Below are positions 757 through 2,977 of a DNA stretch of 64,000 nucleotides, piece by piece; within the stretch, counting starts at the first letter, position 1, and each line of letters opens with the position of its first letter. The notes below the pieces were generated by a model, which made no database searches, was not told the DNA's origin, and saw only the letters and a list, made by a program, of their open reading frames with translations. Made by a program: the position numbers and the translations under genes. This stretch comes from Cognatishimia activa (GTDB lineage Bacteria; Pseudomonadota; Alphaproteobacteria; Rhodobacterales; Rhodobacteraceae), in contig NZ_CP060010.1 in the NCBI RefSeq assembly GCF_017798205.1, forward strand, positions 124,001-188,000. The letters are read 5' to 3'.

Positions 757-1125
757 ATGGAAAACGTTGTCCTCATCATCCACCTTCTTCTGGCGCTTGG
801 CCTGATCGGCATCGTTCTGATGCAACGTTCCGAAGGCGGAGGCTTGGGCATCGGTGGCGGTGGCGGCGGTGGCGCCGTTGCGGGCCGCTCAGCGGCGACT
901 GCTCTGGGTAAAATCACCTGGGTTCTTGCGATTGCCTTCATCTGCACATCCATCACACTGACCATTCTGGCCGCGCGCAACGCAGCCGGCACATCGGTCA
1001 TCGATCAATTGGGCGTCGAAGTTCCTGCAGGCGAAGCCACCGTGCCGACCGCACCAACAGCCGAAGGCAGCCTGCTGCCACCTGCTGAAGGCGACGACGC
1101 ACCACTGGTTCCAATCGCAGAGTAA
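757..1125 (+). CDS. secG: Preprotein translocase subunit SecG
   Basis: SecG is the small accessory subunit of the SecYEG channel and assists SecA-driven export across the inner membrane. The 122-residue product has two hydrophobic segments (about residues 3-20 and 52-70). The loop between them contains LMQRSEGGGLG and a run of glycines, which is the SecG signature. The tail is acidic and rich in Pro and Ala, a common lineage-specific extension. An AAAGG-like ribosome site lies just before ATG 757. It precedes pyrG, an arrangement I recall from other alphaproteobacteria. The long antisense frames over this gene are composition artefacts. Confidence 0.95.
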   Translation: MENVVLIIHLLLALGLIGIVLMQRSEGGGLGIGGGGGGGAVAGRSAATALGKITWVLAIAFICTSITLTILAARNAAGTSVIDQLGVEVPAGEATVPTAPTAEGSLLPPAEGDDAPLVPIAE

Positions 1126-1234
1126 CCACTCGGGTCGATTTCGGCTCCACCACCAGTACTTGAGTATCCAACGGATGCCGCAACTGTATCTTGCGGTCAT
1201 CTTGCCAAGCTATTGCGAATCCTTTATATGTGAA

Positions 1235-1322
1235 CCCCCGTGATACATCGGCAGAATCGCTGCCGAGGGTGTTCATTTTGAATGCAAGTCGCGCCCGAAT
1301 TGCGCGCATCAACTCACGGGGG
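1235..1322 (+). promoter_or_regulatory. Structured 5' leader of pyrG (candidate translational switch)
   Basis: A 9-bp perfect pairing CCCCCGTGA (1235-1243) with TCACGGGGG (1314-1322) encloses a hairpin TCGGCAG/CTGCCGA (1248-1254 with 1260-1266), a small TTCA/TGAA hairpin (1272-1275 with 1279-1282) and a CGCGC/GCGCG hairpin with a 7-base loop (1290-1294 with 1302-1306). The right arm of the closing helix contains the only G-rich stretch before the pyrG ATG at 1334 (GGGGG, 1318-1322), so the fold would hide the likely ribosome-binding site. The pairings are seen directly. A regulatory role is inferred. I cannot match it to a named Rfam family. Confidence 0.5.
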
Positions 1323-1333
1323 TCGCCAACTCT

Positions 1334-2977
1334 ATGGCACGATTTATCTTCATTACCGGCGGCGTGGTTTCTTCCCTTGGCAAAGGTCTGGCCTCTGCGG
1401 CTTTGGGCTCTTTGTTGCAGGCCCGCGGCTATTCGGTGCGCCTTCGGAAGCTCGACCCTTACCTAAACGTCGACCCCGGCACGATGAGCCCCTTTGAGCA
1501 CGGCGAAGTCTTTGTCACCGACGATGGCGCAGAGACCGACCTCGACCTCGGCCATTACGAACGCTTCACCGGCGTGCCTGCGCGGATGACCGATTCCGTC
1601 TCCTCTGGACGCATCTATTCCAACGTTCTGGAAAAAGAGCGTCGCGGCGACTACCTCGGCAAAACCATTCAGGTCGTTCCCCATGTGACCAACGCTATCA
1701 AAGCGTTCATCTCAATCGGTGAAGACGAAGTGGATTTCATGCTTTGTGAAATCGGCGGTACCGTGGGCGACATCGAAGGCCTGCCGTTTTTCGAAGCCAT
1801 CCGTCAGTTCAGCCACGACAAACCCCGCGGCGAATGTATCTTCATGCACCTGACCCTGCTGCCTTATCTGGCGGCCTCAGGAGAGCTGAAGACCAAGCCG
1901 ACGCAGCACTCTGTGAAAGAACTGCAATCCATCGGCATCGCGCCTGATGTTCTGGTCTGTCGTTCCGAACAGCCGATCCCCGAAAAAGAACGCGAGAAAA
2001 TCGCGCTGTTCTGCAACGTGCGCAAAGAAGCCGTTGTCGCCGCCTACGACCTCAAGTCCATCTACGAAGCCCCGCTGGCTTACCATCGCGAAGGCCTTGA
2101 TCAGGCAGTTCTGGACGCCTTCCAGATCGCCCCTGCCCCGAAACCGAACCTCGATCGCTGGAACGACGTCTACGATCGGATCCACAACACGGACGGCGAA
2201 GTTTCCGTGGCCATCGTTGGCAAATACACCCAGCTTGAGGACGCCTATAAGTCCATCAAAGAGGCCCTGATCCACGGCGGCATGCACAACCGCTGCAAGG
2301 TCAATGTGAACTGGGTCGACGCCGAAGTCTTTGACAAGGGCGATGCCGCCCCGCATCTGGAAGGCTATGATGCAATCCTCGTGCCCGGCGGCTTTGGCGA
2401 GCGCGGCACCGAAGGCAAAATCAAAGCAGCCCAATTCGCGCGTGAACACAAAGTCCCCTACCTTGGCATCTGTCTGGGCATGCAAATGGCCGTTATCGAA
2501 GCCGCGCGCAACACCGCTGGCGTCGAAGGCGCGGGATCTGAAGAATTTGACCACGAAGCAGGCAAAAAGCGTTTCGAACCCGTGGTTTACCACCTGAAAG
2601 AATGGGTTCAGGGCAACGCCAAAGTCACCCGCAAAGCCGATGACGACAAAGGCGGCACCATGCGGCTGGGCGCCTATAACGCTACACTGGCCGAAGGGTC
2701 CAAAGTCGCCGAAGTCTATGGCACCACCGCCATCGACGAACGCCACCGTCACCGCTATGAGGTCGACATCAAATACCGCGAACAGCTGGAAAAAGCTGGC
2801 CTCAAATTCACTGGCATGAGCCCGGATGGCCGCCTGCCAGAGATCGTCGAATGGCAAGATCACCCTTGGTTCATCGGTGTGCAGTTCCACCCGGAACTCA
2901 AGTCCAAACCGTTTGATCCCCACCCGCTCTTCCGCGATTTCGTGAAAGCCGCGCTGGAAAATTCGCGCCTGGTCTAA
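1334..2977 (+). CDS. pyrG: CTP synthase
   Basis: CTP synthase makes CTP from UTP, ATP and glutamine, the last step of pyrimidine nucleotide synthesis, in the cytoplasm. The 547 residues match the family length. The N-terminal amidoligase domain starts with [15 protein letters not shown] and carries the [11 protein letters not shown] block (about 138-148). The C-terminal class I glutaminase domain has the nucleophile Cys380 in GICLGMQ and the HPEL motif near residue 521. The gene follows secG and stands behind the paired leader at 1235-1322, which probably controls its translation. There is no strong purine-rich ribosome site other than the G run inside that leader. Nothing is missing from the enzyme. 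Confidence 0.98.

Follow-up and report, generated by a model that had tools for sequence, protein, structure and literature searches.

Nucleotide-sensitive switching of the transcription start site is said to have been described for pyrC and pyrD of E. coli and Salmonella by Wilson in 1992, Sorensen in 1993 and Liu and Turnbough in 1994. The E. coli pyrC leader reads TATCCT-TTGTGT-CCGGC...GCCGGAG...ATG, with the right arm shortly before the ATG, and in E. coli pyrD the sequence CATAAT is followed, after six bases, by CCGG, with CCGGG as the right arm (the -10 of each gene was assigned in this analysis). Control of B. subtilis pyrG, according to work reportedly by Shin in 2020, proceeds through reiterative transcription and attenuation. 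Here we describe a pyrG leader in Rhodobacteraceae whose layout covers the Shine-Dalgarno (SD) sequence, an arrangement for translational control that is, judged from sequence, well supported. On the combined grounds of sequence patterns, folding models and analogy, we consider it somewhat probable that this leader is a CTP-sensing start-site switch working like that of E. coli pyrC. The literature, outside subscription papers and supplementary start-site tables, yielded no description of this leader or of a C-started alphaproteobacterial pyrG.

The window analyzed here is a 64,000-nucleotide stretch of the Cognatishimia activa genome (contig NZ_CP060010.1, positions 124,001 to 188,000), and coordinates below count from its first base. 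Its pyrG region contains the following features.

757 to 1125, forward strand: upstream neighbor, a 122-aa open reading frame that we take, by sequence and position, to be secG
1202 to 1207, forward strand: -35 element TTGCCA, from conserved TTG columns
1217 to 1221, forward strand: GAATC (GANTC) site between -35 and -10, from GANTC at a fixed offset
1225 to 1230, forward strand: -10 element TATATG, lacking a -7T and separated from the -35 by 17 bases, from TA at a fixed offset
1237 to 1240, forward strand: predicted start region C+1 C+2 C+3 G+4, bases 7 to 10 downstream of the -10, deduced from -10 spacing and CCCG columns
1237 to 1243, forward strand: left arm of the conserved helix, CCCGTGA, from pairing across leaders (the arm as originally drawn starts two bases before)
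1244 to 1313, forward strand: helix interior, folding into three hairpins in the window and variable in relatives
1314 to 1322, forward strand: right arm TCACGGG followed by GG, with the SD formed by the G run, from sequence and pairing across leaders
1334 to 2977, forward strand: open reading frame of 547 aa, presumably pyrG (CTP synthase), named from its sequence

The original prediction for this locus described a perfect 9-bp closing helix around three hairpins within 88 bases, with an SD-like G run in its right arm, and these elements were confirmed. CCCCCGTGA (1235-1243) is perfectly complementary to TCACGGGGG (1314-1322), the pyrG ATG at 1334 lies 11 bases past 1322, and the 88-base element folds at -40.6 kcal/mol into three hairpins enclosed by the closing helix (equal stability in 1 of 200 dinucleotide shuffles; z = -4.0). 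That the element is not a tRNA, as had also been stated, agrees with the lack of any ARAGORN match in 1000-1600. The RNA running from the predicted start at 1237 to the ATG shows a smaller stability excess (z -1.6, 9 of 200 shuffles), and the outermost pairs of the helix, those of 1235 and 1236, precede the predicted +1, and in relatives their positions do not covary.

The conservation of the helix was assessed in a family sample of 150 genomes, one per genus and at least 90% complete, drawn from a larger group; the PyrG N-terminus was present in 148, and all 148 upstream regions were used. Left arms were located by their resemblance to the promoter-proximal consensus, with extra credit where TA stood at the -10 distance (placement repeated without this credit gave the identical arm in 147 of 148), and the right arm was the best partner within about the last 32 bases before the start. 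The helix (T)CCCGTGA/TCACGGG(G), whose right arm contains the SD G's, forms at least seven of its eight pairs in 141 of the 148 leaders (8/8 in 103, 7/8 in 38) and fewer than seven in the other seven (L141, L178, L210, L212, L239, L253, L254), while an identical search of shuffled tails returned seven or eight pairs in 15% of 2960 trials. With L178 and L254 left out as doubtful placements, 1119 of 1168 helix cells are paired in the resulting 146 leaders, against 447-695 after sliding one arm by 1 to 3 bases.

Two-sided changes, counted across genera without a species tree, convert the G-C of pair 7 to A-U in five leaders and the A-U of pair 8 to G-C in six and to U-A in two, and shuffling of partners matched the observed pairing in 0 of 2000 trials at pair 7 and 1 of 2000 at pair 8. 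The five changes at pair 7 compare with 0-1 in slid versions; the eight at pair 8 fall within the slid range of 0-15, three of six slides being higher (9, 9 and 15), which slightly lowers our confidence in the proposed switch, and the 15 counted over the whole helix lie inside a slid range of 4-16. Pairs 2-5 are nearly invariant and thus uninformative on covariation. RNAalifold, given 31 chosen leaders, returned the 8-pair helix as its sole output, with two-sided changes at two pairs. Just outside the eight pairs, base -1 (T or C) stands opposite a pairing base in 139 of 146 leaders with no covariation (303 of 2000 shuffles were as good), and base -2 pairs in 45 of 146; given the pairing at -1, the helix may lack a sharp boundary at +1. 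Among AT-rich family members, L257 retains the helix with altered bases (TCCCGTAA with TTTACGGGA), and L258 retains CCCGTGA with an interrupted G run (CACGGAAGG). A search for second genomic copies of TANNNNTNAANNCCCGT gave four matches versus two for the reversed control, and the other three have no such helix before a start.

The multibranch fold itself is real, but its conservation across the family is limited to the closing helix. Inner hairpin loops number one in 59, two in 69, three in 12 and four in 1 of the 141 good-helix leaders, the distance from +1 to the helix end ranges from 46 to 103 bases, and the interior differs across the family in length, sequence and hairpin number, with no family-wide conserved core. 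The first hairpin is kept locally, within the genus: RNAalifold run on the window plus seven same-genus leaders also found it, with a few two-sided changes. These data bear on the metabolite-binding translational riboswitch that the original prediction had in mind. Such a riboswitch would suit a closing helix whose right arm contains the SD, an interior slightly more stable than mononucleotide shuffles (median z -1.3) and a first hairpin retained within the genus, but the conserved ligand-binding core that defines one is not found in the pyrG leaders, and because the inner hairpins vary from 1 to 4, a ligand-binding aptamer is not indicated. No Rfam family reached its cut-off anywhere in the window, and a search of six loci with E up to 5 gave three sub-threshold matches, none overlapping the element. 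What stands of the original translational leader is therefore its SD-covering layout, with the helix in 141 of 148 genera; a ligand riboswitch we regard as highly improbable. A short upstream open reading frame starting from the left-arm GTG was also considered and rejected, as stops occur in its frame at the same rate (0.0251) as in another (0.0252); the remaining frame, at 0.071, contains the TGA of the arm.

Aligned on the left arm, the 146 leaders display fixed promoter columns, namely TTG at -33 to -31 (T 0.99, T 0.88, G 0.98), GAATC at -18 to -14, TA at -10 and -9, and T at -4, followed by A-rich bases and then (T)CCCGTG. When the arm was placed without promoter bases, TTG was found at a fixed offset in 126 of 148 leaders and TA in 115 of 148. 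CCCG occupies the predicted start in 146 of 146 leaders used, the arm having been placed by likeness to that same consensus. The window reads -35, 17-base spacer, -10, six bases and then the C at 1237, and the fixed place of the left arm in so rigid a promoter points to this first C as the predicted transcription start of pyrG. The original prediction had held that a start downstream of 1235 would count against it; the start predicted here does fall downstream, inside the left arm, and instead comes near what is probably the mechanism, in which the base chosen for initiation would set how much of the arm is transcribed.

Starts in E. coli fall most often on base 7 after the -10, with 8, 55, 29 and 7% at bases 6 to 9 (partial text of PMC5730371). 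Alphaproteobacterial promoters mostly lack the -7T (partial text of PMC8407463), and an E. coli-type consensus scan, which demands that base, called no promoter here. C starts account for 13.7% of S. meliloti mRNA starts and, in agrobacteria, for 148 of 4590 primary starts (partial texts of PMC3616915 and PMC10469942, respectively); given how uncommon they are, it is unusual for the canonical start to be a conserved C. Two further elements accompany this promoter. A GANTC site, of the CcrM methylation type, lies just 5' of the pyrG -10 at a constant offset in 105 of 146 family leaders, and GANTC occurs in -40 to -12 in 11 of 56 leaderless-type relatives, a count with no control; cell-cycle input through this site is possible. 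Between secG and the pyrG -35 lies an inverted repeat, CCGCAA-(CTGTATC)-TTGCGG (1178-1196), found in relatives at roughly -55 to -65 relative to the left arm, with the loop CAGCATC in several genera. The best stem of this region is at least 8 in 26 of 146 leaders versus 0 of 146 shuffles, and there is no T run; the repeat may be a terminator or an operator.

In the proposed switch, RNA polymerase would normally use the first C (1237), which is base 7 after the -10, as its start. The RNA beginning 5' CCCGUGA would then pair with UCACGGG and cover the SD, so that PyrG synthesis would fall at ample CTP. When CTP is scarce, initiation would move to the G at 1240, and the resulting RNA, lacking the three C's, would retain only GUGA/UCAC, the helix would open and PyrG would be made. 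For a CTP synthase gene with a conserved C start, CTP is naturally read as the signal; we infer the start sites, their CTP dependence and the translational effect.

The 141 good-helix leaders were folded through the AUG from the upstream A's, from C+1 or from G+4. The median unpaired probability of the GGG opposite CCC is 0.002 for A-start, 0.004 for C-start and 0.31 for G-start RNAs, with the G-start RNA more open than the C-start RNA in 138 of 141 leaders; in 423 shuffled transcripts, C-like and G-like versions are unpaired at 0.42 and 0.43. A value below 0.1 for the C start together with one above 0.3 for the G start is found in 71 of 141 leaders versus 2 of 423 shuffles. Adding 30 coding bases gives medians of 0.010 (C) versus 0.30 (G), the latter higher in 124 of 141, and the leader of the window itself gives 0.0035 versus 0.33, or 0.011 versus 0.66 with 30 coding bases. 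If the count also takes in a fourth G, which in the C-start RNA has no transcribed partner, accessibility is 0.24 versus 0.33, with a rise in 109 of 141. The models predict, then, a partial opening of the SD upon loss of the three C's.

Against the switch stands the location of G+4 at base 10 after the -10, beyond the E. coli positions 6 to 9, where it may be little used as a start. In E. coli, a start at base 7 goes to base 9 once CCT replaces a GGG discriminator (partial text of PMC5730371), and we speculate that the present one, which reads T, mostly pyrimidine, A or G, may have a similar, partial effect. The partial predicted opening, the seven leaders with fewer than seven pairs and the lack of a promoter call by the E. 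coli-type scan weigh on the opposing side too. Also against it, an A-start RNA has the entire arm and keeps the SD shut, and in the models starts at the upstream A's would abolish sensing. That shut fold (0.002 unpaired) and the greater frequency of purines as start bases (partial texts of PMC3616915 and PMC10469942) would equally suit a leader that masks the SD without start switching, initiating always at the C or at an upstream A and relying on a protein or helicase to open the helix. The upstream A's, however, lie merely at bases 3-5 after the -10, and the base-7 C is retained in relatives without the hairpin; we consider this alternative unlikely.

Of 192 genomes searched across the class, 184 gave a PyrG match, three of them family members, and 107 of the other 181 were examined in match-score order (L261-L287, L292-L371). 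The start was alignable in 100, of which 85 have ATG and 15, with the start elsewhere or non-ATG, were set aside. Among these 85 pyrG genes, CC precedes the ATG in 72, TA stands at -14 in 59, and both occur together (TA-N10-CC-ATG) in 56; TA at -12, the position for an ordinary leaderless start, occurs in 13. The 56 genes with both have T at -9 (0.84) and, at -37 to -35, T, T and a weak G (0.89, 0.64, 0.41), columns consistent with -10 and -35 elements 17 bases apart. Counted from this -10, the C is once more base 7, and the AUG begins at base 9. In an overlapping set of 74 non-family loci, C reaches 0.89 and 0.88 at -2 and -1. TA-N10-CC-ATG joined to a strict PyrG start, which demands Phe at codons 4 and 6 and so makes the count a lower bound, was found in at least 48 of 192 genomes, with none for the reversed control among the matches listed. 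A strict 7-of-7 scan for the hairpin form, over 100 class loci plus the usable ones of L037-L110, gave five matches, all in genera that we take to be Rhodobacteraceae.

These relatives bear on two further readings of the family helix. Slippage (reiterative transcription) on CCC in the manner of B. subtilis pyrG, in which added C's would lengthen the pairing with the G run, could draw on the CCCG at the predicted start of every leader used and on the spare G's past the right arm; yet leaderless relatives often have two C's only, short for slippage (TCC-ATG in 43 of 85), and no terminator-like site was found in 1100-1400; we judge slippage decidedly unlikely. If the helix were instead an mRNA 5' stabilizer without nucleotide sensing, for which a 5'-terminal stem is indeed predicted in the C-start transcript, it would have no need to end on the SD, and the CC at the identical promoter position in helix-free relatives would go unexplained; we judge this very unlikely.

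Returning to the CTP-sensing start, the 56 of 85 genes with TA-N10-CC-ATG suggest that a C start is widespread in the leaderless form. A tentative extension, to which we give rather less than even weight, is that pyrG across Alphaproteobacteria senses CTP via its own first bases, an ancestral sensor with leaderless and SD-helix outputs. In leaderless lineages a start at CC would yield CCAUG, poorly translated, and a start two bases on would yield AUG, well translated; Rhodobacteraceae would have converted the shared C start into an SD-covering helix. An AUG close to the 5' end reportedly favors leaderless expression in E. coli, a finding attributed to Krishnan in 2010, and a leaderless on/off switch of such a kind was not found described in the literature outside subscription papers. 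The fixed TA-N10-CC was also sought at pyrD, pyrB, pyrE and carA in six same-genus genomes, including that of the window, and appeared at scattered offsets only (3/6 pyrE, 3/6 carA, 0/12 pyrD and pyrB, with doubtful starts in L386, L388 and probably L405); the pattern is thus specific to pyrG among the five genes examined. The carA start of same-genus genomes L402-L404, L406 and L407 is preceded by a stretch like TTAGTTTCCCGACAATTTGTC.

Should the switch operate as proposed, CTP synthase in a large bacterial class would gain a feedback circuit without a protein regulator, and alphaproteobacterial pyrG control becomes directly testable by mutating two or three bases. If the leaderless form is true as well, a two-base start shift would be a simple nucleotide-supply switch for leaderless genes. 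As in alphaproteobacterial leaderless mRNAs, most of the non-family pyrG genes examined have their ATG very near the predicted +1, here two bases past it. Leaderless transcripts are defined in the partial text of PMC3616915 as beginning at the first base of the AUG, whereas the predicted 5' end of non-family pyrG is C C A U G. Like B. subtilis pyrG, the family gene would be controlled at its first transcribed bases, but its predicted start is CCCG rather than a G run, there are 0 terminator-like sites in 1100-1400 before pyrG, and translation would be the target. From E. coli pyrC and pyrD the leader differs in the gene controlled, in its length and the variable hairpins within it, in a promoter without -7T and often with GANTC, and in having three C's, which place the G at base 10 rather than 9. 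With pyrC and pyrD it shares a -10 followed, after about six bases, by C's and then G, and with pyrC it shares 5' C's that, in the long transcript, can pair with the SD-bearing right arm and that, when lost from the short transcript, are predicted to free the SD (0.004 to 0.31, more weakly by the four-G measure).
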